Origin: Microglena sp. YARC
Taxonomy: Eukaryota > Chlorophyta > Chlorophyceae > Chlamydomonadales > Chlamydomonadaceae
Length of the DNA stretch: 64,000 nucleotides
Direction: 5' to 3'
Assembly (NCBI GenBank): GCA_022414725.1
Contig: CM039463.1
Span: 52,715,405 to 52,779,404, forward strand
Below are positions 4,175 through 59,200 of the stretch, piece after piece (positions within the stretch are counted from its first letter, which is position 1; every line of letters starts with the position of its first letter). The position numbers and the translations under genes were made by a program. A model generated the notes under the pieces. The model made no database searches. It had not been told where the DNA came from and saw only the letters and a list, made by a program, of their open reading frames with translations.

Positions 4175-5215
4175 ACCTGCGGAGAACACTACTCTTCCTT
4201 CTCCTCTGCCTCCCCAGCCTCCTCGTCCTCAGCTGGCACCTCAGTCTTCTCCTGTCCTGTTTGGATAAGACATCAGAATAGATCTCAAACACACGAATAA
4301 CACTTCTCTTCCTTCTCCTCTGCCTCCTCAGCCTCCTTGTCCGTTTGCTTTCACTGGGGCCAACCACCATGAGGTGGGTGGGTGGGTGGGTGGGTGGGCC
4401 TGGAGGAGGGTTTTGGGCCTGCTCCATGTGTCGTCTGCACGCGACAATGGACAGGAAGGAGACAGTGGCATGGGTGTGAAGTATGGTGTTAGGCGGAGAA
4501 CACTACTCTTCCTTCTCCTCCGCCTCCCCAGCCTCCTTGTCCTCAGCTGGCACCTCGGTCCACTCCTGTCCTGTTTGGATAAGATATCAGAATAGATCCC
4601 CAAATCGCGGAGAACACTACTCTTCCTCCTACCCGCTTCGATGAATGACTCAATGGTAGAGCTCGAAGAAACAAGAAGGGTTCAAATCCCTACGGGTGCG
4701 CTTTAGTGTTCGCGGTCGCTGTCAACCGCCATGGCAGCTTTGTCCAGGTAAAGTAGTAGTCCGTTCTCTACCGCTGTAAGACAGGGCTCCCTTAATACCA
4801 CGCCCCACCAGGCGTTCTCATCATTACTCTTCCTTCTCCTCTACCTCCCCAGCCTCCTTGTCCTCAGCTGACACCTCGGTCTTCTCTGTACAATATCAGC
4901 CCCCCTGCACCCAACGTGGGCCACACAAGCAATAGCTGGCCACACGAGCCATAGCTGGAGATGACAGCTGGGGACAAAGAGGGTGGGGAGTCTGGATCCC
5001 AAACACACGGAGAAGACTACTCTTCCTTCTCTTCTGCCTCCTCGTCCGTTTGCTTTCACTGGGGCCAACCTCCATTAGGTGGGTGGGTGGGTGTGGGGTG
5101 GTGCTATCATCCCCCTGGAGGAGGGTTTTGGGCCTGTTCCATGTGTCGTCTGCACGCAGCAATGGGCTGGAAGGAGACAGTGGCATGGGTGTGAAGTTTG
5201 GTTTTAGGCGGAGAA
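4175..5215 (-). repeat. Downstream copies of the DNAI2 terminal exon end
   Basis: About five degenerate copies of the acidic C-terminal coding end of DNAI2 lie just 3' of the gene, near 4180-4260, 4295-4345, 4495-4565, 4820-4885 and 5010-5050. Several include the GAAGAGTAG stop context. They are separated by a GGTGGGTGGG-type sequence and a SINE. They are not in frame with any other exon and appear to be tandem duplications of the gene's last edge. Confidence 0.75.
4630..4823 (+). mobile_element. tRNA-derived SINE, full-length copy
   Basis: An internal RNA polymerase III promoter is visible: an A-box-like TGACTCAATGGTAGAGC near 4646 and a B box GGTTCAAATCC near 4679, at normal tRNA spacing. 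A conserved non-tRNA body follows (CGCGGTCGCTGTCAACCGCC ... ACCACGCCCCACCAGGCGTT). Related copies lie at 19229-19375 and 37785-37978. The word ACTCTTCCT occurs on both flanks and may be a target duplication. The host sequence is a copied DNAI2 exon end, so the SINE arrived after that duplication. Confidence 0.7.
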
Positions 5216-5217
5216 CA

Positions 5218-8200
5218 CTACTCTTCCTTCTCCTCCGCCTCCCCAGCCTCCTCGTCCTCAGCTGGCACCTCGGTCTTCTCGTCACTGCCGTCTGCTTGGG
5301 TGACCTTAAAGAACTCGACCTCTAGAGCCTTCAGCTGCTCTTCAGTCACGTTGTCAGCCACCTCATCCTTCCTGGCAGCCTCCTTACGGGCCTTGACCTG
5401 AAAAAAATGGAAAATGAAAGAATGTTTTAATGGTCAAATATCGGTAAAATGAAAAAAATGACAATGGGGGATGTGACCTGTAGGAGATTGGGTGGGGTGG
5501 GACAGGATATGGAGGGTGAGATGGTGATGATGTCGTCAGCCACCTCATCCTTCCTGGCAGCCTCCTTAGAGCCTTGACCTGTACAAAAATGGAAAATGAA
5601 AGAATGTTTTAATGGTCAAAGATCGGTAAAAGGGGGAAAATATCAACGGCAATGGGGGATGTGACCTGTAAGAGATTGGGTGGGGTGGAATAGGATAGGG
5701 AGGGTGAGATTGTAATGACGTTGTCAGTCGCCTCATCCTTCTTGGCAGCCTCCTTATGGGCCTTGACCTGTAGAAACATGGAAAAATGAAAGAATGTTTT
5801 TATGGTAAAATGGGAAAAATTGCAGTGACAATGGGGGATGCGACCTGTAGGAGATTGGGTGGGGTGGGATAGGGAGGGTGAGATGGTGGTGATGATGGCA
5901 ACAAAAATACGCTACTGACAAAAAACTACTTGGCCTGAAATAGACATGGTGGGGTGGGATAGGATACGAGTGGTTGCATGATGGTAATGATGTTGTCAGC
6001 CACCTCATCCTTTCTGGCAGCCTCCTTACGGGCCCTGGCCTGGAGGGGATAGGGTGGGGTGGGATGGGATATGGAGGGTGGGATGGTGGTGATGATGGTA
6101 ACAAAAATATCCAACTAAAAAAAAACACTTGGCCTGAAGTTGACAGGGTGGGGTAGGATAGGATTAAAGTGGTTGCATGACCACTTACTCACTGACAACC
6201 AACCAACTACCAACCAACCGATCCACCTACCTTAGCCTCCTTGATAGCCTTCTCCAAGTTCTTCTCCCTCTGCGTCTCCCTCTCAAACATGTTGTTAATC
6301 GACAACTTCTCATTAGGTGCCATCTCAGACAGCCCCGAGGACAGGTTGAGGATAGTGCAGCTGCCGTCAGCAGTTCCAATGGCTATGGTAGCGCCGGAGT
6401 CGTGAGCAGCAAAGGTGGTCAAGGGGCAGTCGGACACCTGTGGGGGGGATCAAACGGGAAAGATATTAGCTTGATATGGTCAAGGGGCAGTCGGACACCT
6501 TTGGGGAGGATCACAAGGGAAATATATTAGCATGGCATGGTCAAGGGGCAGAGGTGGTCAAGGGGCAGTCGGACACCTTTGGGGAGGATCACAAGGGAAA
6601 GATATTAGCTTGGCATGGTCAAGGGGCAACAAGGTGGGGAACCAAAAGAGGGAGCAATGTGTTTGACACAGAGTGACAACACGCCAGGTCACCAACCTAG
6701 TGTGACAACTCACCAGGTTGAGTGGGTGATCAAGTAGGCGAGAATCCCTAAACACAAAAATAGCCTACCTGTACAGTCAATGTCGGCTCGTTGTGCTTGT
6801 AGAACAAATCCCACACGTCCAGGTTGCCGTCCATCTTGATGGTGTAGAACATGCCAGGTCATGTGAGTGATCATGTGTGCGAGAATAATGAAAAATAGCC
6901 TACCTGAACAGTCAATGTCGGCTCGTTGTGCTTGTAGAACAAATCCCACACGTCCAGGTTGCCGTCCATCTTGATGGTGTAGAATACGCCAGGTCGAGTA
7001 GGTGACCAAGTGCCCCCCGTCAAGTACGTTGGGTGGTACTTGGTGGTGAGGATGGGGGTGCGCACAGCAGTATCGTCAGTCCAGATGCGTGCGGTCCAGT
7101 CTCCAATACTCATGAAAAACTTTGAGTTGAAGGGGTTGCGTCTCAGGCCGTAGATGGGGCCGTGGTGGCCGGACAGGGAGTACTTGACACGATCAGCCGG
7201 GTTCTTGGCCTTTCTGTTGCAAGAGAAGATGGAGCCCTGCGGAACAAAACACAACACATTGTGAGTAATTTAATGACAGTGCAGCATCAGTGATAGAGGG
7301 CAGGACAGGTGGACTGTGGTGGTGCTGGTAGTGGTGGTAGCATGACTGGTGGACTGTGGAGGACTGGCGTGGCAGGGAGTACTTGACATGATCAGATGCG
7401 CTCTTAGCCTTCCTGTTGCAAGAGAAGATGGAGCCCTGCGAAACAAAACACAAAACAATGGGATGATGGTGGTGGTGGTGGTGGTGGTGGTGATGATTTT
7501 TCTGGTGCCCTACTGGAAGTATGCCTGTCCTTGGTTTGTGACCATGGGGGGAGTGGTGCTTAAGTACGACCCCGCTGATCCTATTGTGTAGTGTTTTGTT
7601 TTGCAGGGCTCCATCTTCTCTTGTTACAGGAAGGCCAAGAACCAGCAGGCCAAGATGGAACCCTGCAAAACAAAACACAACACAATAGGATCAGCGGGGT
7701 CGTACTCAAGCACCATTCCACACATGGTCACATCAAAGCCCTTCTCCCCCTCTCCCCCCCCTCTCTCCCACACACAGTTAGGATCGCACCTGCTCAGTTC
7801 CAACCATGAAGTTGGTGGGGCCAGCAGCCGGATCGCACTCCAGCACCATTCCACCCATGGTCACATCAGAGCCCCCCCCCTCACCCGCCCCCCCCTCCAT
7901 TTCGCCCCTTGCTCACCTTAGCCCCTTGCCCCCTCCCCCCCCTCTCCCACACACAGTTAGGATCGCACCTGCTCAGTTCCAACCATGAAGTTGGTGGGGC
8001 CAGCAGCCGGATCGTACTCCAGCACCACTCCACCCATGGTCACATCAGAGCCCTTCTCCTTCAAAGGCATCTCCTCAAGGCGCTCACTCAACTTACGGAT
8101 ATCCCACCAGAGGACCTGGCCATCTGTTGACACCTGATGCATAGAGGGGTGGGGAGGGGTGAGGAGGGGTAGGGGGGTTGCATGGAGGGGTGAGGGGTTG

Positions 8201-10109
8201 AGGGGGTTGCGTGGAGGAGTGGGGAGGGGTAGAGGGGGTTGCATGTAGGGGTGGGGAGGGGTGAGGGGTGGAGGGGGTTGCGTGGAGGGGTGAGGAATGA
8301 AAGGGTGAGTTGTGGTGAGGGGTGGAGGGATCAGGGGTTTGAGTGGTGAGGGGTGGAGGGGTGGAAAGGTGAGGGGTTTACATGGAGGGGTCAGGGGTGG
8401 ATGGGTGGGGAAGGATGAGGATGGGTGGGGAAGAGACGGGGAAGGGGTTAGGAGGGGTAGGGAAGAGTGGGAAAGGGCTGAGGAGGGGTGGGGAAGGGGA
8501 GAGATTGTCAAAGTACAGCTACAGCCTGGCTCACTATCCCACCACATCCACCACCACAACCATCACGACCACTTCCACCACTATCTCACCTGGAGAGCCA
8601 TCAACCTAATAACCACCACCACCACTACCACACATGGCCGACCCACTGACATGGCCTGAGCTCTAGTCTTATATTGCAACCAAGCAAGGTCTCTGCATCA
8701 TCTACTGCCAGCCTGCCCCCCCCACTACCACCACATACACACAACTACCCCCCCCCCCCCCCCCACCCCACCCACCCACCCACACTTACACCCACCTCCA
8801 CAACCCCACACACACTCACCGACATGGCCTCAGCTCCAGTCTTAGATTGCAACCAAGCGAAGTCGTAGATGGGGTCACGATGAGAGATGTCAATGGGGGT
8901 AGTGTCCACAGGGCTGGTTCCCTTCCTAGGGTCGTAGTACGAAAACTGGCCGTTGTACAGACCAGCGCCGATCAAATTGGTGTCCTTCAGGTTAAATTTA
9001 GACGTGCAGATCTGGCTGCTGGGGACCATCTCGTAGTCCGGAGTGTTCGGGTTGTTCACGTCCCATACGTAACTGCTGAGCGGCATGTCTGCAGGCTGCT
9101 GCTGGAATTGCAGGATTGAGTAGGAGACGACGACCTGTGACAACAATGTTTTGTTAGCCCTTGAAGTAATTCGTTAGCCCTCGAATAAATTGAACAATTG
9201 AAAATTGAAAGAAAGAAAATGAACGCTTTGTCACATCCCATACGTAAGTGCTGAGCAGCATGTCTGTGGGCTGCTGCTGGAATTGCAGGATTGAGTTGAG
9301 GATTCACAGACCTGTAGACAAGACTTCTTCATTAGCCCTTGATGCCATTGGCCCCCCATTACCCCCCCCCCCCCCCCCCACCCCCCACCCGTTCCTTCTC
9401 CCCTCCTTCTCTCCTCCCCCTCCCTCTCTCCTCCTTCCTACCCCCTCCCTCTCTCCTCCTTCCTACCCCCTCCCTCTTTCTGTCTCCTATCCTCCTTTAT
9501 TTCCTCTCCCCCCTCTTTTCATCTCCCCCCCAACAGTATACTTCACATTGGGAACGGAGGCGTCTGGGTGCCAACTGGTGGATGTGTGTGTGGATGTGTG
9601 TGTGTGTGTGGATGTGTGTGTGTGTGGATGTGTGTGTGTGTGGATGTGTGTGTGTGTGTGTGTAAATGTGTGCATGTGGATGTGTGTGTGGGGTGTGTGT
9701 GTGTGGGTGTGTGTGGGTTGGTGGATGTGTGGGTGGGGCACAAGCATGTCGTCCCCCCCCCCTCCCTTCACCCCCCCTCTGTATACATTACCATCGGTAA
9801 CTGCCTTACCTTGGGAACTGAGGCGTCTGGGTGCCAACTGACGTAGGAGGCTGAGCGTTGGACGTTGCTAGGGTCCTTGAACACGGTTACAGTCTTCACA
9901 CTAGGCACCTCAGCGTTATGGCTGGGGATGTTGGCATCTGGGGATAGGGTGGGGAGGATGGGTTGGGTTGGGTTGGGTTGAGTTGGGTTGGGTTGGGTTC
10001 TTCACACTAGGCACCTCAGCGTTAAGGCTGGGGATGTTGGCATCTGGGGATAGGGTGTGTGTGTGGGGGGGACCGGTTGGTATGGGGGGAAGAGGGAGAG
10101 GGAGAGAGG

Positions 10110-10199
<90 letters not shown>

Positions 10200-11463
10200 T
10201 TGGGGGGGAAGAGTTCATGGTGAGAGGGTGGATATATAAGCAGATATGAGAATTGACACTTTTCTACTTAGTACTTTGTGCGTGTACACCTGTACAGCTT
10301 TACCAAAGACATAAACAGAGACCATGATTGTAGTATGGATGTACAATTTTGTACATCACAGATGCATGTGAACTCATACATTTAAGAACACGAGCACTTC
10401 CGTAGATTTAATTCTCTTTCTTATAAGCAGGTGTAAGCAGATTAAAAGTGGATGCGCTTCATGGTGAAGGTGGATGAATGGTGGATTAATGGTGGAAAAA
10501 CACTGTTTTATTTTTAGGCTACTCATGGCAGCTTCCAGCTAGCTTCAATAGCCAGCCACTGGGTCGAACCCAATGCTTGAAGTTGCAAGCCCCCCCACAC
10601 ACAAACACCACCACACACACACCCTATCTGGAGCTCTCTTCGGCAAGAGTCCTGGAGGTAAAACATTCCAATGTTTCCCATATCTTCAGAGACTAACTTG
10701 TGTTTAATAACCCGGAATAACTACACATGTTACGCGTGGCCTGTTGGTAACTGTCACCCCCCGTGCTATTCCCCCACCCCCATGACCCCCCCCCCCCCTG
10801 CCTCCCCCCCTTTGCAACAGGCTGTGCGGAGGTATCAGGCCCATGGCCACATGGAAGCTGTAAACTAGAGCTGGGACCTCTGGATGGGTCTATGTGGTGT
10901 GGTGTAGAGGGGCTTGGGTGTTGGCTTGGCTTGGAACTTGCCTGAGTAGTAGTGCTGGTAGATGTCGATGGCATTGTTCTGCTTCAATAACTCCTCAACG
11001 GATCCTCCGAGCACAGTAACGGTCTTGATGTAGTCCTCATCCTTCTCGACTTTCTTACGATACCTAAGGACCGGGAGGGGGTTGGGGTCAGTCAGACATT
11101 CGGCGAGTGCGGGTCGCTTCACATGTCAATATGGTACATTTCCGTCATGCTCCCGACATTTTTGCCATCGCCGCTTTACCTGATGGTATGCTCCGCTTCC
11201 GTATAATCGACATCCTTAGGCCATCCGCCCTCAACGTGGCACATAACTTTAGGTGCTAGGACAACTGCCATTGTGTTCGCTTCGTGCTCAGACATCTCAG
11301 GAATGCATTGAGTTACGGTTATGACCGGATTGCGAGGGATATATTCCTTCGCGTGCTCCTCGTTGGGACGGATGTCAGCGAACATTTCAGCGCCTTCATC
11401 AGTGAATTTGGGATGGCGCCCAAACTGCTTTCGCAGGCGCACATACTGGTGATAAATCTCCAT
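5218..11463 (-). CDS. DNAI2: Outer-arm axonemal dynein intermediate chain 2 (DNAI2 / IC69-ODA6 family), 8 exons, 577 aa
   Basis: WD-repeat intermediate chain at the base of the ciliary outer dynein arm. Exons (5' to 3', minus strand): 11463-11180, 11063-10942, 9937-9810, 9134-8820, 8133-7969, 7236-6904, 6437-6231, 5397-5218. All junctions keep phase. The protein begins [16 protein letters not shown], as in Chlamydomonas IC2, which fixes the start, and the total is close to the family's roughly 570 aa. WD-type motifs are seen at about 200-204 (YVWDV), 292-296 (WWDIR), 383-390 (GDWTARIW) and 433-437 (DVWDL). A charged helix around 480-550 leads to an acidic tail rich in Glu. Intron 2 uses a GC donor (CAG/gcaagt). 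Introns 2-7 contain copies of neighbouring exon edges; intron 1 (116 bp) does not. It lies head-to-head with the transporter gene. Confidence 0.95.
5520..6045 (-). repeat. Three copies of the DNAI2 exon-8 acceptor edge
   Basis: Intron 7 carries three degenerate copies of the first 40-50 nt of exon 8 plus the upstream intron, near 5525-5580, 5725-5772 and 5993-6045, spaced about 210-260 bp apart. Each preserves the coding word for [14 protein letters not shown] in mutated form and an AG-like acceptor. Only the copy at 5397 continues into the open C-terminal frame. Confidence 0.8.
6470..6620 (-). repeat. Copies of the DNAI2 exon-7 acceptor edge
   Basis: The word GGTCAAGGGGCAGTCGGACACC at the 5' end of exon 7 recurs near 6478 and 6560, each followed by CTTTGGGGAGG, so each copy keeps an AG acceptor. 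Partial copies (TGGTCAAGGGGC) occur at 6538 and 6617. These are possible alternative acceptors, but each copy runs into intron sequence after about 25 nt. Confidence 0.75.
6765..6870 (-). repeat. Copy of the DNAI2 exon-6 donor edge
   Basis: About 100 bp repeat the 3' end of exon 6 (coding for [20 protein letters not shown]) together with its donor. The true exon edge at 6904 is contiguous with the rest of exon 6. This copy is cut off from it by intron sequence, so it has a donor but no acceptor. Confidence 0.8.
7370..7960. repeat. Mosaic of DNAI2 exon-5 and exon-6 edge copies with an inverted repeat
   Basis: Intron 5 contains a direct copy of the exon-6 start (about 7375-7440), a direct copy of the exon-5 donor edge (about 7787-7870), and an inverted repeat with arms at about 7537-7616 and 7655-7735. 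The arms hold an internal piece of exon 5 joined to the intron-5 acceptor and exon-6 start. A (GGT)n run lies at 7465-7490. Confidence 0.75.
9234..10050 (-). repeat. Copies of DNAI2 exon-3 and exon-4 edges around exon 3
   Basis: Near 9234-9305 is a copy of the exon-4 acceptor edge, and at 9540-9575 a copy of the exon-3 donor edge. At about 10000-10050, on the other side of the exon, is a copy of the exon-3 acceptor edge. The true exon 3 is 9810-9937. A (GT)n-rich stretch (about 9580-9725) lies between. Confidence 0.75.
10110..10195. repeat. (GA)n microsatellite in DNAI2 intron 2
   Basis: An almost uninterrupted GA dinucleotide run of roughly 85 bp. It is CT on the transcribed strand and so pyrimidine-rich in the pre-mRNA, but lies well away from the exon-3 acceptor at 9937. 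Confidence 0.95.
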
Positions 11464-11866: not shown

Positions 11867-14800
11867 ATGAAGACTTCAGAAAAGAAAAGCCTCAATGCGG
11901 AGCTGGCTACCCAATATGGGTGAGTCTCCAGTTCTCCACAGCGCGGCCTGCGCCCCTTTTTCATTAGCAGCCAGCTGTCCGAGATCTGACCTGTCCCTGC
12001 TGCTCGACCAAGTATCTCACGCTGCTCCCAATGCACAGATACATGTTCCTGTGGATCACGCTGTCCGCCTCGGTCATTCTCATCAACAAGTACATCCTAT
12101 CCATATCTGGTGAGTAGCTGCGACGAGCCTGGCCAGTCGGATCTGCGCTCCGAGCAAGAGCAAGTCGCTGACTTCACAAAGCCGCAGCAACAATTATACC
12201 CCTTTTGAACGCTTCCTCCCCTCCCCAATTCAGGATTTCCATACCCCATATGCCTGACCGTCACCCACATGGGCTTCTGCTCTCTCCTAGCGCTCGCTAT
12301 AGTCAAGAGTGGCTATGTGGAAGCTGTGAACATAACTGCAGAGACGTACCTGAGGTAGGGAGACTGCATGCGGTCAGAATCGGGGCGTCAGACAGCAATA
12401 GCAGGCCACTAGTTTGACCACTAGTTTGACCAGTGCCTCCCCATCACAACCCTACTATGCCTCACTGCCTCTTGCATCACTCTACTATTGGTACATGTTC
12501 TGCAATTACATGTCAAGGCCATTGCCTTGCGTGGTGGAGCCAACAATTGCAGTCCATGTTACTAACGGGCGCAATTTTGTGAGCCTATCCCATCCCAGTC
12601 TAGTGACTCGTGATCTGTGTGGTCTGCGCAACTGATATGTAGGGAGTGATCTGCACCCTACAGTCATGGGTGGATATCTAAGTCAAAGCCATGCACGGTG
12701 GAGTCAACAATTGCAGTTATTGTATCCCTGGGGGGGGGGGGGGGGGGGAGTTGGTTGACAGGTGGTTGGCATCCCAACTGCAACAAGATCAAATCTCTTA
12801 ACAAAACACATGCTTGTTCCCGAGCGCAGCAAGATCGAATCTCTATACGACACCCATGTTTCTTGAGTTCTCAACCACTCCCAGGTTGAATCTCTAAACA
12901 GCACCCATGCTGGTTGACGTCCCATGCGCAACAATATCGAATCTCTAAACAACACCCACATTGGTTGATGTCCCAACCACAACCAGGTTCTCTAAACATC
13001 CTCCCTTTTCCATTTGCAGCTGCATCCTTCCTATCGGCCTCTTGTTCGCCGGGACCTTGTGGGCTGGCAACGCTGCCTACCTGTACCTTAGTGTGTCCTT
13101 CATCCAAATGTTGAAGGTGTGTTAAGGTTCTCCTTATTGATTATGGGCCCCGGTCAGTTATGGGTATAAAATCAACGATATCATATGATGCCGGCAGTCT
13201 GACTAGTCTAAAGTTACCTTTTATAGACAATATCATACTCGCCTTTGGTAAACATCACATGATATGCCGGTTCCTAATTATGGGTCCCTGTCAGTTATGG
13301 GTCTAAAATCTAGTGACAAAGTATGTGAATGCTACCATTACTATTTGCATAGAGAATGAAGAGAATCTGATTTACAGAAGAGTGCATTATCAACTCTGCC
13401 ACTGCCAAGCTGCCTGTCTATCTATCTACAGCTATACAAATACCTACCTACCTACCTACCTACACCTATATACCGAACTGCCTGTACCTACATATTTATC
13501 TATATACCTACATCTATACATCTACCTATATCTATATACCTACATCTATACATCTACCTACATCTATACATCTACCTATATCTATATACCTACATCAATA
13601 CATCTACCTATATATCTATGTACCTACATCTATACATCTACCTATATATATATATACCTACATCTATACATCTACCTATATATCTATATACCTACATCTA
13701 TACATCTATACATCTACCTATGTATCTATATATCTACATCTACACATCTACCTATATATCTATATACCTATACCTACATACTTATCTATGTACATATCTA
13801 TCTGAGTGCAGCTTCCCATGTCCATGGTTAAAGTGACCCCCCCTCCCCTGATCCACTCCAGGCTTCCAGGCCCATGGTGCTGCCCCTGTCTATATATCTA
13901 TCCACATGCCTTTGCCCCTGACCCTTAACCCAAATCTATCTACCTGCCTGGTCATGACTAAAGCAACCTCCCTTAACTTGATCCACTCCATGCTCCCATG
14001 CTCATGGTGGTGTTCCTATCTATCTATCTATTTATCTATCTATCTATCCACATGCCTGTCTATCTATCTACCTCCCTGTCTATGGCTAAACTGGCCTCCC
14101 TTCCCCTGATCCACTCCAGGCGTCCATGCCCATGGTGGTGTTCCTATCTATCTATCTATCCACATGCCTGTCTATCTATCTACCTCCCTGTCTATGGCTA
14201 AAGTGGCCTCCCTTCCCCTGATCCACTCCAGGCCTCCATGCCCATGGTGGTGTTCATCGTAGGTGTCGGGTTTGGCACAGAGAAGTTCACTATGAGCAAT
14301 GCTCTCAACATGGTCGTCGTCGGTACTGGTATCGCCATTGCATCATACGGTAGGTCCTGCAGGCCAGTTTGAAATGATAGCTGTCCCTGTGTAGGTATCC
14401 CAGCACTGGTATCGCCATTGTATCACATGGTAGGTCCCGCAGACCAGTTTGAAATGATAGCTGTCCCTGTGTAAATGACCATGCATTGGTATTGCGATTG
14501 CATCATACGGTAGGTCCTGTAGACCAACTTGAAATGATAGCTGTCCCTGTGTAACTGAACATGCACTGGTATTGCAATTGCATCATACGGTAGGTCCTGT
14601 AGACCAGCTTGAAATGATAGCTGTCCCAGTGTAAATGACCATGCATTGGTATTGCGATTGCATCATACGGTAGGTCCAGCAGAGCAGCTTGAAATGATAG
14701 CTGTCCCTGTGTAAATGACCATGCATTGGTATTGCGATTGCATCCTACGGTAGGTCCAGCAGAGCAGCTTGAAATGATAGCTGTCCCTGTGTAAATGACC

Positions 14801-22340: not shown

Positions 22341-22344
22341 GGAT

Positions 22345-43691: not shown

Positions 43692-43732
<41 letters not shown>

Positions 43733-43922: not shown

Positions 43923-43963
<41 letters not shown>

Positions 43964-44537
43964 GGGGGGGGTATGTGTGTTTATATGGTGGGTGGGTGAG
44001 GAAGCGTATAGGGTGGGTTGGTGGGTGAGGGGGAGTGGTGTGGTGGGTGTGTGGATAATGTAGGTGGGTGAGGGATCGTATATGGTGTGTGTGTGTGGAT
44101 GTATATACGGCATTGAGTATATGTGTTGATCTTTTGATGTAAATATCCCACCTGGAGGAAGGCGCTGGTCCATGCAGGCAAGGGCTCGTAAGCAGCAAAA
44201 GCAAGGCCACTGGCAACAGCTAAGACCGGTACAGCAATACGTATTATTATACCCTTATTATACCCACCGAGTATTATATATAATGAGTATATGTGTATAT
44301 TTTTACATGTATATATCGTTATTGAATGTCCCACCTGGAGGAAGGTGCTGGTCCACGCAGGGGGGGTCTTATCATATGCAGCGAAGGCAAGGCCTCTGGC
44401 AACATCTGATATCCGTATAACAATATGTATTATTATAAGTATGATTATTCTATATATAATGAGTATATGAGGTGATTTTTACATGTGTATATTTCGCTAT
44501 TGAATGTCCCACCTGGAGGAAGGTGCTGGTCCATGCA

Positions 44538-44575
<38 letters not shown>

Positions 44576-46592: not shown

Positions 46593-46623
<31 letters not shown>

Positions 46624-49461
46624 ACACATACACACGCGTCGCACAACTTTATTTCCCTTGGCAAACACATGGTAAACATATTTCCCCCTTAGCAACAGAA
46701 AATATGTAAATATGTAAAATATGACCAAAGGCGAGTATGACATCATACACATTGCATCCTATGATATTGTTTATAAATGGTAACTTAAGCCTAGTTAGAC
46801 TACCGACATCATATACACATACGAAATCTTATTATGACATGATATCATATTATATTATATCATATTGCCGTTCCCTAGACATCACTGACGTGTCCATCCA
46901 GTAGCGGGAGGTAGGCATGGACGATACTCAAGTAGTCGGATATCTACACATATGTACAGTGTAACACCAGTACAAGCAAACACCTATACACAAACAAACA
47001 TGCATGGTGCAAGCAAGTAGCAACACAAACATACTCTTTGCAACATCACAGACCTGACCATCCAGTGCCGGGAGTCAAGCATGGACGATACTCAAGTAGT
47101 CTGACATCTAGACGGTGTCACATCAATACACAAACACACAGGCATGGTGCAAGCAGCACAAAGATCCTCTTAGCGACATCACTGACCTGACCATTCAGTG
47201 CTGTAAGGTAGGCACGGACGATACTCAAGTAGTCTGACATCTAGACAGTGTCACATGAATACACAAACACATAGCTTTGCACAAACACACATGCATGGTG
47301 CAAGCAACACAAACATACTCTTTGCAACATTACCGACCTGGCCATCCAGTGCTAGGAGGTAGGCATGGACGATACTCAAGTAGTCGGATATCTTCACATC
47401 TGTACAGTGTAACACCAGTACAAGCAAACACCTATACACAAACAAACATGCATGGTGCAAGCAACACAAACATACTCTTTGCGACATCACAGACCTGACC
47501 ATCCAGTAGCGGGAGGTAGGCATGGACGATACTCAAGGAGTCGGACAAATATGCAGTGCCACATCAATACAAACAAACATGCATGGTGCAAGCAAGTAGC
47601 AACACAAACATACTCTTTGCGACATCACAGACCTGACCATCCAGTGCCGGGAGGTAGGCATGGACGATACTCAAGGAGTCGGACAAATATGCAGTGCCAC
47701 ATCAATACAAACAAACATGCATGGTGCAAGCAAGTAGCAACACAAACATACTCTTTGCGACATCACAGACCTGAACATCCAGTGCCGGGAGTCAAGCATG
47801 GACGATACTCAAGAAGTCGGGCATCTATGCACAAACAAGCATGTCATATTATATCAAATCGCCGTTCCCAAAACACCACTGACCTGTCCATTCAGTGCTG
47901 GGAGGTAGGCATGGACAATGCTCAAGTAGTCAGACAGCCACTCAGTCTCTGGCTGGTACCCTAATCGCACAAACGAAGGTAGGAGAGAAACAAGGTCCTG
48001 AGGGGCCAGGTGCAGGTAGTTTAGGTTTAGGTGGTTAAGAGTTCAGGTTGTTTAGGTTTAGGTACCCTAATCGCGCAAATGAAGGGAGGAGAGAAACAAG
48101 GTCCTGTGGGGTCAGGTGCAGGTGGATTAGGTTTAGGTGCCCTAATCGCGCAAATGAAGGGAGGAGGGAAACAAGGTCCTGTGGGGCCAGGTGCAGGTGG
48201 ATTAGGTTTAGGTGCCCTAATCGCGCAAATGAAGGGAGGAGAGAAACAAGGTCCTGTGGGGCCAGGTGCAGGTGGATTAGGTTTAGGTACCCTAATCATG
48301 GAGGCCATGCGGGGAAAGCTGGTCAGCACTTAGCTGGTCAGCACTTTGGTATAGGTGGTTTAGGTTTAAGTGGCTTAGGGTTCAGGTGGTTTAGGTTTAG
48401 GGTTCAGATGGTTTAAGTTTAGATACCATAATCGCGTAAGCAAGGGGGGGAGAGTAACAAGGTCCTGTGGGGCCAGGAGGGGGAATGGTCAGCACTTAGC
48501 TGGTCAGCACTTCGGTATAGTTGGCTTAGGTGGCTTAGGGTTCAGGAGGTTCGGGTTTAGGGTTCAGATGGTTTAGGTTTAGATGCCCTAATCGCACAAG
48601 CAAGGGGAGGAGAGAAACAAGGTCATGTGTGGCCAGGTTTAGGTGGTTAAGGTGGCTTAGGGTTCAGGTGGTTTAGATCTTGGGTTTAGATGGCTCAGGT
48701 TTGGGTGGTTTTAGGGTTTAGGTGGTTCAGGAGAAAAAGTGCTGAGCAGCTAAGTGCTGACCAGCTTAGTGTTGACCAGCTAAGTGCTGACCAGCTTAGT
48801 GTTGACCAGCTAAGTGCTGACCAGCTTCCCCCTACCTACCTGTGGGGACATTCTATCCCGGTGCAATTGACTGGTTCACCAGCTAAGTGCTGACAAGTTA
48901 GGTGCTGACCAGCTAAGTGCTGACCAGCTTCCCCCTACCCACCTGAGGGGACATCCTATCCAGGTGCAATCCACTGGTTGAGCAAAAGCGCTCCATCCAG
49001 TCGTTACAAGGAATCTGTCCAAGCTCGGCAAAAGCCCACACCAGAGTTGACAGGTTGCCAGGGTCAAAGGTATCCATCACTTCGAAGCATCCCTCTTGAA
49101 AGGCCGTGGTCCACTCGGCAGATGGCCTGGCACAAAGAGAGAGAGGGAGAGGTGTTAGGTGTAGGGAGAGGGAGAGATCCCTAGACTTCACTTCCCCCCC
49201 CCCCCACCACCACCACCACCCACCACCACACACACACAACTACCCCCCCCACCACCACACACCCCCCACACACAACTCCAGGGTCAAAGGTATCCATCAC
49301 TTCGAAGCGACCCTCTTGGAAGGCTGTGGTCCACTCGAAAAATGGCCTGCCACTTAATGTGTGTGTGTGTGTGCCGGGGGGGGTTGGGGTTGGGGGGGGG
49401 GGGGGGGTTGGGGGGGGGGGGAGACAGTTAAGGCTGTGGTCCACTTGGCAGATGGCCTGCC

Positions 49462-49504
<43 letters not shown>

Positions 49505-50187
49505 CAAGGGAGATGTGTTAGGGAGAGATAGTAAGTGCTTAACGCACCTGTGGTGTAGCTTGGCCATGCCCCACACTACAGTGGCCAGCTCCTTGGGACT
49601 GTAGGCCTCCAGTCGCAATGAGACGTGATCTTCCACCGCTCCCATCCAAGTGTAGCTTGTCACATGCTGCAGTTTTGCCACAGTGCCCATCACCAATGCA
49701 ACATTGTGGGGCAGCATGGCGGGCAGAGAGTAGGCGACACAGTCCAGCATCTGTGGGTTAAGAAGTTTGTTTGTTGGTGTAGCTTGTCACGTGCTGCAGT
49801 TTTACCACAGTGCCCATCACCAATGCAACATCGTGGGACAGCATGGCAGGCAGAAAGTAGGCGACACAGTCCAGCATCTGTGGGTTAAGAAGTTTGTTTG
49901 TTAGTGTAGCTTGCCAAGTGCTGCAGTTTTACCACAGTGCCCATCACCAATGCAACATCGTGGGACAGCATGGCAGGCAGAGAGTAGGCGACACAGTCCA
50001 GCATCTGTGGGTTAAGAAGTTTGTTTGTTAGTGTAGCTTGCCAAGTGCTGCAGTTTTACCACAGTGCCCATCACCAATGCAACATCGTGGGACAGCATGG
50101 CAGGCAGAGAGTAGGTGGCACAGTCCAGCATCTGAGGGTTACGCAGTTTGTTTGTTTTTGTGTCTCATTTCATTTTGATTTCTTGGT

Positions 50188-50232
<45 letters not shown>

Positions 50233-53200
50233 CATGGCAGGCAAAGAGTAGGCAACACAGTCCAGCATCTGTGGTTTGCTTGTTTGTTTGTTTGTTTGTT
50301 TGTTTCAAGTTGATTTTTGTTTGTTTTTTGGCAGAGAGTAGGTAACACAGTCCAACATCTGTGGGTCAAAACAATTGTCTCTTTGTTTGTTTGTATCAAT
50401 TCATTTCAATTTGTGTTGTTTTATAGCAGAGAGGGTTATAAGGTGAGGCTTCTATGTTTGTTTGTGTGTTTGTTCCAGTTCATTTGAATTTTTGTTAATG
50501 TTTTGGCAGAGAGTGGGCGACGCAGTCTAGCATATGTAGGGATAGGCAATATGATATCATATGATATCATGTCATCATATGATATCATACGATGCCGGCG
50601 GTCTGACTAGATAACTTTGGCCTACGGCATCATATCATATGATATTTGTATGATATCATATGATTTGCCGGTCCCTAAGCATCTGTGGATTCAAAATTGT
50701 AGTTTATTTGTTTCGATTCATTTTGAGTTTTCCTTGTTGTTTGGTAGAGAGCGGACATCACAGTCAAGCATCTGGGGGATAAAAACATTGTTTGGACACT
50801 GGGAATCCCTACTGCACCTGATCAACAAAGTTTGCGTCCATGGGGCACCTCAGAGACTGTAAAGAGTCAAAGATAAACGCCAGTTGGTGCGGCTTCGGCG
50901 AGTCTCCACCCGTATTCAACTTTCTATGATATAAGCCTGTCAAATTTAATCCAATCCCGTGAACCGGGAATCCTTACAGTACCTGATCAACAAAGTTTGC
51001 GTCCATGGGGCACCTCAGTGACTGTAAGGAGTCAAAGATAAGCACCAGTTGGTACGGCTTCGGCGAGTCTCTACCCGCATTCAACTGTATTTTATAATAA
51101 AAGCACTCAAAATTCGACATAATCCCGAGAACCCAGAATCCATACCTGGTCAACAAAGGTTGCGTCCATGTGGCACCACAGAGACTGTAAGGAGTCAAAG
51201 ATGAAGGCTAGTTGGTACGGCTCTGTGAGTCTCCACCCATATTCAACTGTATTTTTATAATCAAAGCACTCAAATTTGATACCATCCCGTGAACCGGTAT
51301 TCCTTACTGCACCTTAACCTGGAATCCTTACCTGGTCAACAAAGGTTGCGTCCATGGGGCACCTCAGGGATTGTAAGGAGCCAAAGATAAACACCAGATG
51401 GTACGGCTCTGTGAGTCTCCACCCATATTCAACTGTATCTTTATAATCAAAGCACTCAAATTTGATACCATCCTGTGAACCGGTATTCAAGGTTGCGTCC
51501 ATGGGGCATCTAAGTGACTGTAAGGAGCCAAAGATGAAGGCCAGTTGGTACGGCTTCGGCGAGTCTCTACCCGTATTCAACTGTATCTTTATAATCAAAG
51601 CACTCAAATTTGATACCATCCCGAGAACCCAGTTATAAAAATTCGACTGCATTTTTATAATCGAAGCTTGTCGAAGCACTCCAATTTGATATCATCCCGT
51701 GAACCGGGAATCCTTACTGTACCTGGTCAACAAAGGTTGCGTCCATGGGGCACCTCAGGGATTGTAAGGAGCCGAAGATGAAGGCCAGTTGGTACGGTTT
51801 CAGCGAGTCATCATCCGCCCCTGCTGCCTGGCTCAGCATGAGCGACTGTTGGTGTGCGACTGCTGCACGAGCCTCTAGCAGCCAAGGGGTTTCCAAGGGG
51901 TGGCCCAGGCGAGCAAGGGCCCACAGCGTGTTGGTGAGATGCATAGCAGGGAGGTTGGGGAGGTGGGGTTGCAAGGCAGTGACCATGGCCTGCAGGTGTG
52001 TGTGTGTGGGGGGGGGGGGGGAGAATGGGAGTGAGGGGAGTTGCGGGGGAGGGGGGCCCAGGCGTGCAAGGGCACACAGTGTGTTGGTGTGATGCATAGG
52101 AGGGAGGTTGGCGAGGTGGGGTTGCAAGGCAGTTACCATGGCCTGCAGGGGGGATGGTGGGGGAGAGAGTGGGAGTGAGGGGAGTTGCGGGGGGGGGGGG
52201 GGGGGGGGGGGGGCAGGCGTGCAAGGGCCCACAGCGTGTTGGTGTGATGCATAGCAGGGAGGTTGGTGAGGTGGGTTGCAAGGCAGAGACCATGCCAGGC
52301 AGGGGATGAGGGGGGAGGGGGGGGGGGGGGGGGGGGGGGGAGTGAGGGGGGGGGGTGTGTGGGGGGGGGGGGGGGAGTGAGGGGGGAGAGGGGGGGGGGG
52401 GGGGGGAGTGAGCGGACGGGTGTCCCTGGCGAATGGGGGCATTTGTGGTCTGCAATAGTAAACAAGCCTCACCCTCACCTGCACGGGCTCATACCCTCAG
52501 GCTTGTGGTTGACAGTGGCCAGCAGATAAAAGGGCTGTCCTCCTTAACCACAGCTTGCTGACTGTTCTGCACCATGGGCTAGTTTGCTTGCTGAACAGGT
52601 AACAGCCCTCACCTGCACGCGCTCTTACCCAGACGTGTGGTTGACAGCGGCCAACAGGAAACAGGCCTCACCTGCACCTGCACGCGCTCATTGGTGGAGG
52701 CCCCCCCTCTGGGGGACGGGAGCCCCCAGGGTTATCCCGTTGTCCGTTATACCGATCGAAAAACTCTGGCGTGTGGTTGACAGTGGCCAACAGGAAACAG
52801 GCCTCACCTGCACGCGCTCATAACCAGGCTTGTGGTTGACAGTGGCCAACAGGATACAGGCCTCACCTGCACGCGCTCATACCCAGGCTTGTGGTTGACA
52901 GTGGCCAACAAGTACAGGCATACAGGGCCTTCCAGGTCCACTTGAGGATGCACGGGATCAGAAGACGTTGAGGCTTTGCTGGGGTCACGGAGTGTCTGGA
53001 CTGCGTTGCTCTTAGCCCGAGTTGCGACGTCATCGGCTAGCTTGTTGAGAAAGCTGAAACCCATTGGGATATCCATGTCCTGGATGAAGGGAGGGACATA
53101 GGGAAAGGCTTTTGGGTTAGTCTGGAGTGTCTGGTCTGCGTTGCTTGTAGCACGAGTTGCGCCCTCATGCGATAGCTTGTTGAGAAAGCTGAAACCCATC

Positions 53201-56200
53201 TGAATGTCCATGTTCTCGATGAAGGGAGGGGCAGCGGGAAAGATGTGTGGATTAATATAGAGTGTGGAGTGTGGAGTAGAATTACACACATAGAATTCCT
53301 CCACCCCGTCCTTGGGGTAGCACATACCCGGCCCCCACCCCCTGGTGGCTAGTGCAAGTCCCTTCAGCCTACTTGTCCACTCCTGGACAGTCACATACAC
53401 ATATACACACATACACACCTCAAGCGCTTTGAGTAGGTCCACCAGCTCATGGGTATTTTCAAAGCTCCCCAGCTGTTTACCCACTGCTGTGTGGTACTCC
53501 TCCACCCAGTCCTTGGGTAGCACATACCCGGACCTCTTCAGCACCACGATGAAGAGGTAAGCTGGTCAACAATTAGGTGTAGGTGCTTTAGGGGTCAGGT
53601 TTAGGATTTAGTGCTGATCAGCTTCCCCCTACCTTCAGCGTGAATATGATTATTGAACTCATCCACCCAGTCCTTGGGTAGCACATACCCGGACCTCTGC
53701 AGCACCACGATCAAGAGGGAAGCTGGTTAACAATTTGGTTTAGGTGGTTTGGGTTCAGGCGCTTTAGGATTCAGGTTTAGGATTTAGTGCTGATCAGCTT
53801 CACCCTGCCTTCAGCGTGGATATGATTATTGAACTCCTCCACCCAGTCCTTGGGTAGCACATACCCGGACCTCTGCAGCACCACGATCAAGAGGGAAGCT
53901 GGTTAACTATTAGGCTTAGGTGTTTTGGGTTCAGGCGCTTTGGGGTTCAGGTTTAGGATTTAGGTGGTTTAGGTTGTTTTAGGGTTAGTATTTAGGTGGT
54001 TTAGGAAAAAAAGTGCTGAACAGCTAAGTGCTGACCAGCTCCCCCCTACCATCAGCGCGACGATCAAGAGGGAAGCTGGTCAACAATTAGGTTCAGGTGG
54101 TTTGGGTTCAGGCAGTTTAAGGCTGAGGTGGTTCAGGTATAGGGTTTAGGATTTAGGTGGTTTAGGTGGATTAGGTAGTTTGAGGGTTGGCGCTTAGGTG
54201 GTTTAGGAAAAATAGTGCTGACCAGTGAAGTGCTGACCAGCTTCCCCCTACCGTCAGCACCACGATCAAGAGGGAAGCTGGTCAACAGTTAGGTTTTGGT
54301 GGTTTCGGTTCAGGCGGTTTAGGGCTGAGATGGTTCAGGTGTAGGGTTTGGGTGCTTTAGGTGGTTTTAGGGTTATTACTAAGGTGGTTTAGGAAAATAA
54401 GTGCTGATCAGCTTCCCCCTACCTTCAGCACCACGATCAAGAGGGAAGCTGGTCAACAATTAGGTTTAGGTTGTCTTGGTTCAGGCAGTTCAGGGCTGAG
54501 GTGGTTCAGGTTTAGGGTTTTTGGTGGTTTTAGGGTTAGCGTTTAGGTGGCTCAAGAAAATAAGTGCTGACTAGCTAAGGGCTGACCAACTAAGGGCTGA
54601 CCAGCTTCCCCCTACCTTCAGCGCGACGTTCAAGAAAGACAGGCTCTCTGGAAGGAGCTCGTGCAGAGATGGAGCGTGGGTGTAGGTGTAAGTATTGGTG
54701 GTGGGTGTAGGCGTGGGTGTGGGTGTCGGCATGGGCATGGGCATGGATGTGGGGTGTCTTCATGCTGTTCCCATGATAACCAGCTTCTCCCTACCTTCAG
54801 TGCGACGATCAGAAGGGACAGGCTCTCTGGAGGGAGCTCGTGGAGAGATGGAGCGTGTGTGTGTGTGGTGGTGGTGTCGTGGGGGTGGGTGTAGGCGTAG
54901 GTCTGGGTGTCGGCCTGGGGGTGGGCACGGGCATGGGTGTGGGGTGTCTCCATGCTGTTCCCAAGATAACCAGCTTTTCCCTACCATCAGCGCGACGATC
55001 AATAAGGACTCTGATCAACAATTAGGTTGTGGTTTAGGAAAATAAGTGCTGACCTGCTAAGTGCTGAGCAGCTTCTCCCTACCTTCAGCGCGACAATCAG
55101 TAGTGACAGGCTGTCTGGAGGGAGCTGGTGTAGAGATGGCTGCAACACCGCTGTGATGGCGGGGAGGAGGAGGGCAGGCATGCGGCAAGTGCAAGGGCCA
55201 GAGAGGCAGCGGATGGCCAGGCGGGGGTCGGTTTCCGCGGTGGACGCGAGGTGAGATGAGACGGCCTGAGATATGGCCGTGAGGGAGTCCACGTCTGGGC
55301 AGGTGGGGAGCTGACGCTCAATGCCTGTGGGGTGTGTGTTGTGTGGTGGGGGGGGGGGGGTGATTCGAGTTCTGGTTGGTCTTGATCGAGGTGTGTGTGT
55401 GTGTGAGAGAGAGGGAGTGTTTAAGGGAGACCACGTCTGAGCAGGTGGGGGGCTGATGCTCAATGCCTCTGGGGTGTGTGTGTGTGGTGAGGGGTGGGGT
55501 GGGGGTAGGTAGGTAGGTGGGGATCTGGCGCTCGATGCTTGTGAGGTGTGAGGGTGTATGTGATGCCACACTGAACTGCATTGCACTGCACGGTTTGAGG
55601 AGTCGGTTGCACAGGTTCTCACCACCACTCTCACCACGAACAAAAACACCACCAACACAAACACCACCAATACACCACCACCTCCAGCGGCAACAACAAA
55701 AACAACAACACAACAATTACACCACCACCACCACTACCAACAACAGCAACACAACAATAACACCACCAACAACAACAACAGCAACAGCAACAACAACAGC
55801 ACACTTACCAGCTGCAGGGCCCATCAAAATGCTGCTCATGCACGACCATACGGCCGAACTCATCCCAGAACCCTTCCACATTCTATGGCATCTCCTCTCC
55901 AGACCACCCACATGTGCATCTCCTCTCCAACCCACACACACATGTGCATCTCCTCACCAATTCCATCCCCCCCCACCCACCCACCCACCACCACCACCAC
56001 CACCCACCCCCGCCACCACCGCACCACCCACACCACAATATGATATGCCGGTCCCTACTTACCGGCTGCAAGGGCCACAGCCTCCAAAGCATCCACCAGC
56101 TGCTCAATGCTTATCTGGGCCGAGATGACAGCCGGGGCTATCACTCTCAGGGTAGCCCCAGCCATAAGGCTCCCAGGGGGCTGACCATTTCCCGCAAAAG

Positions 56201-59200
56201 CTGTCAGAAGACGCGCTGCGTCCTTTGGGCTCATTAATGCAAGCACACTTGAACCTGCAGGGTGGTTCCATAGGGGAAGGGGTGGTATGATCCTGATACT
56301 TGATCAATGATAGGAACTGATCAATGAGCTGATGAACTAATCATTTCCCGCAAAGACAGTCAGTAGTCGGGCTGCATCCTTTGGGCTCATTGATGCAAGC
56401 ACACTTGAAGCTGCAGGGTGGACCCATTGGGTGGGGTTAGGGGAGGTGTGGGGGTGCATAGTTTTAGACAGTGTTGCTGATCAATGATCCGATGAACTGA
56501 CCATTTCCCGCAAAAGCTGTCAGAAGACGCGCTGCATCTGTAGGGCTCATGGATGCAAGCACACTTGAAGCTGCAGGGTGGTTCCGTAGGGTGGGGTAAG
56601 GGGTAGTGTGGGGGTGCGTCGCAAGACGGGGTGCGTAGCAAGACGGTGCTACATTTTGCTGACACATGAGCCGATGAACTGACCACTTGCAGCAAAGGCA
56701 ACCAGATGGCTGGCCTGTATCTGTTGTAGTCATGGATGCAAGCACACTTGAACCTGCAGGGTGGTTCCATAGGGTGGGGTAGAATGATAATGTTACTTGA
56801 TCAATGATAGGAACTGATCAATAAGCAAACTGACTTCTTGTCACAAAGGCAAACAGATACCAGGCTGTATCGGTGGGAGCCATGGATGCAAGCACACTTG
56901 AAGCTGCAGGGTGGTTCCATAGGGTGGGGTAGTATGATAATGATACTTGATCAATGATAGGAACTGATCAATGAGCAAACTGACTTCTTGACACAAAGGC
57001 AAACAGATGACAGGCTGTATCGGTGGGAGCCATGGATGCAAGCACACTTGAAGCTGCAGGGTGGTTCCATAGGGTGGGGTAGTATGATAATGATACATGA
57101 TTAATGATAGGAACTGATCAATGAGCAAACTGACTTCTTGACACAAAGGCAAACAGATGACAGGCTGTATCGGTGGGAGCCATGGATGCAAGCACACTTG
57201 AAGCTGCAGGGTGGTTCCATAGGCTGGGGTAGTTTGATAATGATACTTGATTAATGATAGGAACTGATCAATGAGCAAACTGACTTCTTGACACAAAGGC
57301 AAACAGATGACAGGCTGTATCGGTGGGAGCCATGGATGCAAGCACACTTGAAGCTTCAGCGTGGTTCAATAGGCTGGGGTAGTTTGATAATGATACATGA
57401 TCAATGATAGGAACTGATCAATAAGCAAACTGACTTCTTGAAACAAAGGCAAACAGATGACAGGCTGTATCGGTGGGAGCCATGGATGCAAGCACACTTG
57501 AAGCTGCAGGGTGGTTCCATAGGGTGGGGTAGTATGATAATGATACATGATTAATGATAGGAACTGATCAATGAGCAAACTGACTTCTTGACACAAAGGC
57601 AAACAGATGACAGGCTGTATCGGTGGGAGCCATGGATGCAAGCACACTTGAAGCTGCAGGGTGGTTCCATAGGGTGGGGTAGTATGATAATGATACATGA
57701 TTAATGATAGGAACTGATCAATGGGCCCATGAATTAACCGCTTGACACAAAGGCAAACAGATGACAGGCTGCATCCTATGGGCTCATGGATGCAAGCACA
57801 CTTGAAGCTGCAAGGTGGACCCGGAGGGTGGGGTTAGGGGTTGTATGGCACTGATACATGATTAATGTTAGGAACTGATCAATGAGCCGATGAACTGGTG
57901 TGGGGGACGGTCGCTGGTCTGTTTCGGTAGACCTACCTCCTGGGGTGAAAATCCTTTCACACACAAAAATTTGACCCATAGGGTGGGGTAAGGCGTGGTG
58001 CTGGGGATGGTATCGCCCACCAACCCTTAGTGCGCCTACTCTTTTGTAGGAGTGGCAACGCCATTCAAACTGAATCCTTGGTCTCGCTGGTTTGTGTCGG
58101 GAGACTCACCTCCTGGGGTGAAAAACAAAGGCAGTTGGCTTGGCACCAAACTGGCCAGGCCTGGGTCGCTGGTTTGTGTCGGGAGACTCACCTCCTGGGG
58201 TGAAAAACAAGGGCAGTTGGCTTGGCACCAAACTGGCCAGGCCTGGGTCGCTGGTTTGTGTCGGGAGACTCACCTCCTGGGGTAAAAATCCTATCACAAC
58301 CAGTCACAACTTAAAAAAAACATTGGGTGGGGTAAGGGATGGTGGGATACGCTGCTCACCTGCCCCATCAGGATCCTCACCACCCACCTACCTACCTACC
58401 TCCCACCCACCCACCTACCCCCACCCTCCCACTCAACCACCTTCCCACCTACCCACCCACCTACTCATCCACCTATTCACCTACCCACCAGCTGCAAGGG
58501 CCACAGCCTCCAAAGTATCCACCAGCTGCTCAATTCCTATCTAGGCCGATTCATCTCCCCCTCCCCACCCTCCTACCTACCCCCCACCCTCCTACCCCCA
58601 CCACCCCTCTCAACCACCGACCCACCCACCCACTCAACCACCTATCCACCTACCTTCCCCATCCGGAGACAGCAGTTGCTGAGACAGACCGAGGATGAGA
58701 TCACGATCGAGCCTTGGTGAAAATCCTTTCACAACTAAAACAAAAATGGGGTGGGTTAAAGGATGGTGGGATATGCTGCCCACCTTCTCCATCAGGATCC
58801 TCCCCACCCTCCTACCTACCCACCACCCACCCACCTACCTACACCCACCCACTCAACCACCTATCCACCTACCTTCCCCACCAGGAGACAGCAGTTGTTG
58901 AGACAGACCAAGGATGAGATCACGATCGAGCTTTGGGCTCTCAGTGAAAATCCTTCCACAACTAAAAAAACAATGGTAGGGTAAGGGGTGGTGGGATACG
59001 CTGCTCACCTTCCCCATCTGGAGACAGGAGTTGTTGAGACAGACCGAGGATGAGATCACGATCAAGCTTGGGGCTCTCGATCCAGCAAGCAGCCTCCAAG
59101 AATGAAATGACCTCCTGACCGCTCAGTGAACGGTGATTTTCCCCGACCTGGTAGTAGACAGCCTCTACCCAGGACTCTGGAGGCTGCACCCGCATCTTGG

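Follow-up and report, generated by a model that had tools for sequence, protein, structure and literature searches.

Tandem copies of single exon edges in the long introns of a Microglena genome segment, a probable product of local duplication filtered by selection

Introduction

The tandem repeats of the green algae Chlamydomonas reinhardtii and Volvox carteri are densest in introns, with an excess toward intron-exon junctions (PMC3887541), and the introns of the core-Reinhardtinia lack a peak at 60–110 bp and have medians of 198–343 bp, lengths whose advantage "remains unknown" and whose mechanism is left open (PMC8226300). In the model of border-induced selection, deletions are removed when they reach into conserved borders, with the effect that short introns acquire a bias toward insertion (PMC9748784). 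Intron gain by tandem genomic duplication is represented by the Rogers model, by ATP2A1, by the potato RdRp gene (PMC4974935) and in Drosophila (PMC2891723). Here we compare these systems with a stretch of 64,000 nucleotides from Microglena sp. YARC (positions 52,715,405–52,779,404 of contig CM039463.1, called C2 below, in the 568-Mb, 2,390-contig assembly GCA_022414725.1; hereafter the window), whose long introns are largely occupied by tandem copies of single exon edges, that is, of a piece of the adjoining exon, its one splice site, and some intron.

Internal gene duplication, in which exonic or intronic segments are duplicated within genes, was reportedly described by Gao and Lynch in 2009, a study that PMC4974935 cites. 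The one-edge array pattern is not described in the titles or abstract openings of the matches listed in our literature search, from which subscription literature mostly fell outside.

Results

We modelled four multi-exon genes in the window (G1, G2, G3 and G5), which have 32 introns with a median length of 1,018 bp. An extended-probe scan (score of at least 20 and at least 12 exon nucleotides) found direct copies of the edge of a flanking exon in 28 of the 29 long introns, defined as those of at least 339 bp. There are 163 such copies, 91 of donor edges and 72 of acceptor edges; 159 of them span the junction and none contains both splice sites. Both edges are copied in 15 introns, and the maximum for one edge in one intron is 19 copies. 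In a plainer test, 45-nt probes of exon edges were compared with the adjoining intron, with a cut-off of 17.5 that is the maximum of 1,752 comparisons between edges and non-adjacent introns. The best edge score exceeds this value in 27/29 long introns, and 38 of 58 edges exceed it directly, compared with 1/58 in the reverse-complement control. As none of the 1,752 non-adjacent comparisons scored above 17.5, the edges tested (which are not every array) do not recur in unrelated introns as introners would. The three introns of 116–124 bp gave no edge copies in the extended-probe scan, and the 665-bp third intron of G2 has interior repeats and no edge copies. These results agree with a first-pass annotation of the window, which had claimed exon-edge copies in nearly every long intron, none in the introns of 116, 119 and 124 bp, a single long exception in G2, and copies that almost never contain both splice sites. 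Its proposal of junction-straddling tandem duplication is likewise supported by the proportion of copies that span the junction and by the correlation of edge-copy number with intron length (Spearman 0.78, 29 long introns).

The copies group into 43 arrays, and no edge has more than one. The unit is 80–213 bp in 41 of the 43, and the other two have apparent spacings of 264 and 378. They are head-to-tail and direct, with units of tens to hundreds of base pairs, and are in this sense of the minisatellite type. The exon part has a median of 16–94 nt per array (overall median 48), and the reach into the exon is limited: on the donor side, 30/55 of the 45-nt exon windows at 0–29 nt from the edge are copied and 0/101 from 90 nt on, and on the acceptor side the corresponding values are 36/55 and 2/105. 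Probe masking assigns 23,588 of 35,462 bp of long-intron DNA (~67%) to edge arrays, and in 19 of the 29 introns these arrays account for over half of the length; Tandem Repeats Finder alone reports 34 loci at edges (17.9 kb) and 19 in interiors (3.3 kb). Among tandem-repeat rows with a unit of at least 25 bp (n = 135), 26 span one exon edge, and none lies inside an exon or contains one. The median identity of the copies is 0.83.

The gene models bear on whether the copies belong to the proteins. G1 (5218–11463, minus strand; 8 exons and 7 introns, of which the 116-bp intron 1 is copy-free) encodes an outer-arm dynein intermediate chain (IC2/DNAI2-like). Its spliced product is collinear with the C. 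reinhardtii outer-arm dynein intermediate chain 8glv_Ac over 552 aa with one single-residue gap, and is identical to the same-species prediction P0122 except for 3 missing residues at one junction. G2 (11867–19876, plus strand; 9 exons and 8 introns, with copy-free introns of 119 and 124 bp) encodes a sugar-phosphate transporter whose body aligns collinearly with six relatives without internal gaps, and whose nearest match is a C. reinhardtii protein at 81% identity. G3 (22495–30458, minus strand; 6 exons, 5 introns) encodes a Cpn20/23-type co-chaperonin that is collinear with Chaperonin 23 (7ekq_Q), with two one-residue gaps. Because the G1–G3 proteins are collinear with their homologues once the copies are spliced out, the copies are judged to stand outside these proteins. 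G5 (39808–59501, minus strand) is a FAST-kinase-like gene (PF06743) modelled with 13 exons and 12 introns, its 5′ part uncertain. The single match among 7,994 scored candidates in its homology search is P0121, an automatic prediction of G5 itself from the same species, which supports much of exons 2, 3 and 5–13 and disagrees at exon 4; the edge copies are placed outside the G5 protein as predicted by this gene model.

Four controls indicate that the exon edge is mostly not special. First, direct copies were found for 0.73 of the windows at the junction (81/111), for 0.63–0.86 of those in the intron, and for 0.58, 0.29 and 0.15 going into the exon. Repeat coverage thus does not differ between junction and intron interior (paired Wilcoxon P = 0.22; interior windows may sit within edge arrays, and outside all edge arrays 133/407 windows are repeated), and the fading into the exon roughly matches that of a randomly placed unit of ~145 bp. 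Second, coding ends at stop codons are also copied downstream, in three of five genes (G1, score 43 against a high reversed control of 20; G3, 30.5; G5, weakly, 19). Downstream copies were not found for the stop-codon ends of G2 and G4, and the start-codon ends have copies in 0/5 genes. That stop ends are copied and start ends are not may be because a second stop is harmless and a second start harmful. The copies at ~4175–5060 that had been taken for splice-junction copies belong here: six copies of the coding tail and stop-codon end of G1 lie 3′ of its real stop (4179–5041, minus strand), and the coding tail and stop-codon end of G3 are repeated at 22337–22528 (minus strand). Third, the DNA between genes contains 17 arrays of comparable unit (25–152 bp), one of which is the G3 stop-end array. 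Genome samples (18 of 3 kb at round coordinates, 8 of them on C2) are array-covered to a mean of 34%, vs 41% for the window (P = 0.29).

Fourth, none of the 135 repeat rows is enclosed by an exon or encloses one. The placement of arrays was also simulated. When 53 arrays are dropped randomly into introns of the present lengths, 4–12 introns are predicted to have edge copies, vs the 28 observed; hence either the introns grew from shorter ones or there is an edge bias, or both apply. If introns grow from 120 bp, 26–29 of 29 acquire edge copies and the observed excess vanishes, in a simulation whose units and copy numbers were themselves taken from these introns. The choice therefore lies between short starting introns and an edge preference, which possibly act together. 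Exon edges as a special substrate for duplication are weakened as an idea by the four controls, and an edge preference may nonetheless exist. The earlier interpretation thus holds in part: tandem duplication over junctions and the lack of two-site copies stand, and the special status of the edge is weakened.

The copies would confront the splicing machinery with many decoys, as had been proposed. GT is retained in 81/87 donor copies and AG in 63/72 acceptor copies, and the identity of the donor-copy GT is 0.95 vs 0.86 for the exon flanks. When a matrix built on the 32 real sites is applied, 42/84 donor copies equal or exceed the real donor, and 15/71 acceptor copies the real acceptor. Use of a decoy donor would lead to a stop codon in 84/84 cases, an outcome that would largely be expected by chance in long intron sequence; of the 71 decoy acceptors, 61 would run into a stop and 7 would change the frame, which leaves 3 that are in frame and open. 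In 13/14 introns the donor arrays come before the acceptor arrays, which is consistent with exon definition, and pairs of an acceptor copy and a donor copy less than 500 nt apart occur in G5 intron 3 only. Exon definition would be the simplest rule by which these decoys are ignored. Gene prediction is misled by them, in that the prediction for G5, P0121, reads decoy edges as protein: it has a MLDCVAYSLPAML-type sequence four times, one of which is the real start of exon 7, and FIFGSLQSLRCPMDATFVDQ twice, one of which is the real end of exon 6, and so gains three exon 7 starts and one exon 6 end.

It is informative to compare array-loaded genes with their paralogues. A G2 paralogue on contig C1 (T_C1; L037/L038, C1:140.22 Mb) shares with G2 exon sizes of 71, 121, 97, 118, 38, 226 and 112 nt and hence the places of its introns. 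The eight common introns measure 83, 154, 346, 1072, 259, 371, 258 and 639 bp in T_C1 and 119, 124, 665, 1115, 1046, 1367, 1179 and 1387 bp in G2. Repeat coverage is zero in all eight of these T_C1 introns, and edge copies are absent from its 10 modelled introns, 6 of them longer than 300 bp; one further T_C1 intron has 36% repeat coverage. In a second pair, T_C3 (C3:45.31 Mb) and T_C2, which share exon sizes of 118 and 98 nt and are 86.7% identical over 165 nt of the last exon, T_C3 has almost no arrays (coverage 0–4%, edge copies in 0/4 introns) and T_C2 is array-loaded (coverage 28–85%, edge copies in 3/3 introns, 3 of 4 being counted after a dubious first junction was dropped). Since a paralogue with the same exon sizes has array-free introns, the introns are judged from these comparisons to be older than the arrays and to have been lengthened later. 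Separately, the last exon, undivided in G2, is interrupted in T_C1 by an extra intron of 486 bp, which reflects either a gain or a loss.

Two protein queries led to 13 further genes, all of which were examined, 11 of them from one transporter superfamily search, so that the sample is small and related. Same-side edge copies are present in 9 of the 13 (T_C2, L009, L010, L021, L028, L029, L033, L034, and L069 with L071) and were not found in four (T_C1, T_C3, L023, L068). For 11 exons of these loci, same-side copies were found for 13/22 edges and wrong-side copies for 0/22; at the 11 single-exon loci the edges are the ends of protein matches and not proven splice sites. Several of these loci call for caution in detail: the L028 signal is weak (22.5), the copied part of L021 extends deep into the exon, the right edge of L029 has copies in one scan and none in a stricter one, L023, counted as negative, has two weak matches (18 and 20) just beyond its exon match, and L009 and L010 each consist of one long open frame (398 and 384 aa), the copied end of which may be that of the gene. 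The edge-copy pattern is thus common and not universal. A restriction to contig C2, which three transporter genes had suggested, was rejected, as loci on C3, C4 and C1983 also carry copies.

The distribution of copies over individual introns, by the extended-probe scan, is as follows. In G1 (minus strand), intron 2 (9938–10941, 1004 bp) has no donor-edge copy and one acceptor-edge copy; it is a GC-AG intron, with the donor CAG|GCAAGT at 10936–10944 on the minus strand. One copy of each edge is found in intron 3 (9135–9809, 675 bp) and in intron 6 (6438–6903, 466 bp), a single donor-edge copy in intron 4 (8134–8819, 686 bp), and three acceptor-edge copies with a unit of ~190 bp in intron 7 (5398–6230, 833 bp). 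Intron 5 (7237–7968, 732 bp) has two copies of each edge and also holds the sole inverted match among the 58 edges, a copy of the start of exon 6 at ~7596–7650 (placed by eye).

In G2 (plus strand), the exceptional intron 3 occupies 12355–13019. Acceptor-edge copies are present in intron 4 (13117–14231, 1115 bp; three) and intron 6 (15434–16800, 1367 bp; four), whereas intron 5 (14350–15395, 1046 bp) has nine donor-edge copies with an 80-bp unit. Copies of both edges occur in intron 7 (17027–18205, 1179 bp; two donor, one acceptor) and intron 8 (18318–19704, 1387 bp; six donor, two acceptor). In G3 (minus strand), the one acceptor-edge copy of intron 1 (28998–30353, 1356 bp) is below the threshold of the plain 45-nt test; intron 2 (27683–28891, 1209 bp) has five donor-edge copies, intron 3 (25934–27502, 1569 bp) three of each edge, and intron 4 (25071–25874, 804 bp) three of the acceptor edge. 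Intron 5 (22657–24929, 2273 bp) has eight donor-edge copies with a 169-bp unit and nine acceptor-edge copies with an 81-bp unit.

In G5 (minus strand), intron 1 (56255–59008, 2754 bp) has four donor-edge and ten acceptor-edge copies and intron 2 (55325–56062, 738 bp) two acceptor-edge copies; intron 3 (53536–55082, 1547 bp), with eight donor-edge and two acceptor-edge copies, is the only one of mixed order. Intron 4 (53080–53418, 339 bp) has one donor-edge copy, which does not span the junction, and one acceptor-edge copy; intron 5 (51990–52866, 877 bp) has two of each edge; and intron 6 (49751–51722, 1972 bp) is tiled nearly end to end, with five donor-edge and seven acceptor-edge copies. Two acceptor-edge copies lie in intron 7 (49127–49547, 421 bp), one donor-edge copy among predominantly interior repeats in intron 8 (47953–48942, 990 bp), and seven donor-edge copies in intron 9 (46149–47883, 1735 bp). 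Intron 10 (45034–46064, 1031 bp) has one donor-edge copy and six acceptor-edge copies with a 116-bp unit, intron 11 (43373–44922, 1550 bp) five donor-edge (4 spanning the junction) and three acceptor-edge copies, and intron 12 (40129–43270, 3142 bp) 19 donor-edge (18 spanning the junction) and three acceptor-edge copies.

Other features of the window include an intronless gene of the TENA/THI-4 family (PF03070; 31848–32500), within 1,500 bp of both ends of which edge copies are absent. A dispersed element of ~180 bp with ATCATATGATATC-like palindromes is present in both orientations at 32501–32680 and 36926–37098, with partial copies of the ATCATATGATATC-type element at 13177–13268, 46722–46876 and 50559–50606. 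Another dispersed element lies at 37781–37985, 4678–4821 and 19233–19372 in copies that are 83–88% alike, and stretches at ~4640–4690, before that element, resemble what we take to be tRNA promoter boxes, so that it may presumably be a SINE. The 3′ flank of G1 (5046–5202) has at least 41 genome matches at 83–89%, most of ~155 bp (40 of 625 candidates were scored), and is therefore a dispersed repeat.

Discussion

Local tandem duplication filtered by selection is the reading that we favor for the edge arrays, with a probability of roughly three in four. Segments of ~80–210 bp would be duplicated in tandem frequently, within genes and between them, at a rate and by an enzymology that we infer, and selection would then filter the products by their place. 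A unit inside an exon would alter the protein and a unit with both splice sites would add an exon, whereas a unit spanning exactly one exon edge would be tolerated, the real edge staying beside its exon. In a short intron nearly every tolerated unit would have to span one edge, and deletions of equal size would almost always hit an exon, so that introns would ratchet upward and fill with half-exon copies. Consistent with this, placements that do no damage number 234 for duplications and 0 for deletions in a 120-bp intron, and 1147 and 793, respectively, in an intron of 1 kb (a deletion having to leave 60 bp). That stop-codon ends are copied and start-codon ends are not is likewise expected under this filter. 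Events that invade conserved borders are missing (0/163 two-site copies; 0/135 repeat rows in or around an exon), as expected under border-induced selection; the classes of unit that survive would be set by the exon borders, because it is the two-site and exon-internal classes that are absent. For the correct protein, splicing must settle on the outermost sites, the first donor and the last acceptor of an array, a choice that exon definition would accomplish.

Several observations weigh against this reading. Array-free introns attain 1,072 bp in T_C1 and 1,513 bp in T_C3, and hence introns also grow by other routes and some genes escape the arrays; these two genes, with introns longer than 1 kb, are almost array-free in a genome whose sampled DNA is one-third arrays. 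There are 43 edge families and 14 interior families (57 in total), and random placement expects an edge share of 0.26–0.43, whether the introns are taken as repeat-collapsed or given the lengths of those in T_C1 and T_C3; 43/57 departs from this with P from 4e-14 to 6e-8 over expected shares of 0.27–0.40. When the edge arrays are collapsed intron by intron (median 369 bp), 27–40 arrays are expected and 43 observed (P = 0.002), and 18–26 introns with edge copies are expected and 28 observed. The 120-bp start of the growth simulation is an assumption, and a 300-bp start gives 16–25 of 29 introns, never 28. The 15 introns with copies of both edges compare with 4–14 predicted from the 120-bp start and 6–16 from a 60-bp start, and the exon share of the unit is slightly low (0.34 vs 0.36–0.48 expected).

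The surplus of edge families and of introns copied at both edges, together with the higher array coverage of introns (57%) than of intergenic DNA (24%), could alternatively signify that tandem duplication is actively biased to exon–intron junctions, through transcription- or splicing-coupled DNA damage or positioned nucleosomes (the unit median is ~145 bp). We consider such a bias improbable, because coverage is level from junction to interior, stop-codon edges behave alike, the collapsed lengths, being upper bounds, lower the expectation, and interior families, which decay on both sides, are more difficult to detect. Edge arrays nonetheless exceed random placement, which leaves the hot-spot reading some weight. 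It is doubtful, too, that junctions are true hot spots for tandem duplication of about nucleosome length and that one-edge duplication, locked in by the lethality of equal deletions, is the main engine of intron growth in the lineage; in that case the spliceosome would have to choose among up to 19 similar extra donors by exon definition alone.

It is very unlikely that the decoys are functional, that is, extra donors and acceptors kept to regulate or safeguard splicing. The retention of GT and AG, the raised GT identity and the strength of half of the scored decoy donors would fit such a role, but constraint on the real sites alone raises identity, and the consequences of using the decoys are mostly stop codons. 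Clear selection for the decoys was rejected, since the dinucleotides show no clear loss of copy-to-copy diversity (P = 0.04 for donors and 0.34 for acceptors). The creation of the introns themselves by tandem duplication of exon segments is highly implausible: the copies are tandem and contain splice sites, as in the potato case (PMC4974935), but similar intron ends are found in 1/32 introns only, by a low-complexity match, and T_C1 has introns at the places of those of G2 without arrays, a comparison made for G2 only; on these two grounds we reject it. Finally, repeats are generally difficult to assemble, but an assembly artefact, which had been raised as a possible refutation, can be set aside, as only 2/163 copies are at least 97% identical, so that the copies are not assembly echoes, and they differ from one another, never contain two sites, and recur on several contigs.

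If local duplication filtered by selection is the source of the arrays, they constitute a readable record of intron lengthening and a natural test of splice-site choice among similar decoys. They also bear on the cause of long introns in the Chlamydomonas group, a question left open in print (PMC8226300).

The algae of PMC3887541 are related and similar in having intron-rich tandem repeats near junctions; their top motifs are 1–17 nt and the available text states no units of exon plus splice site, whereas the units here are ~80–213 bp and span the junction. The core-Reinhardtinia (PMC8226300) are also related algae; the introns here are longer, and the available part of that account gives no edge-copy mechanism. 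In the potato RdRp gene the duplicate likewise carries the 3′ side of the intron and the start of the next exon (PMC4974935). Tandem-duplication intron gain, however, yields a new intron, whereas here introns that already existed have grown longer and retain their real splice pair. Border-induced selection (PMC9748784) is an indel model in whose available text the word "tandem" does not appear; here a duplication may span one border and so leave a visible record. In the main, the pattern is explained by known processes, acting in unusual combination and to an unusual degree.

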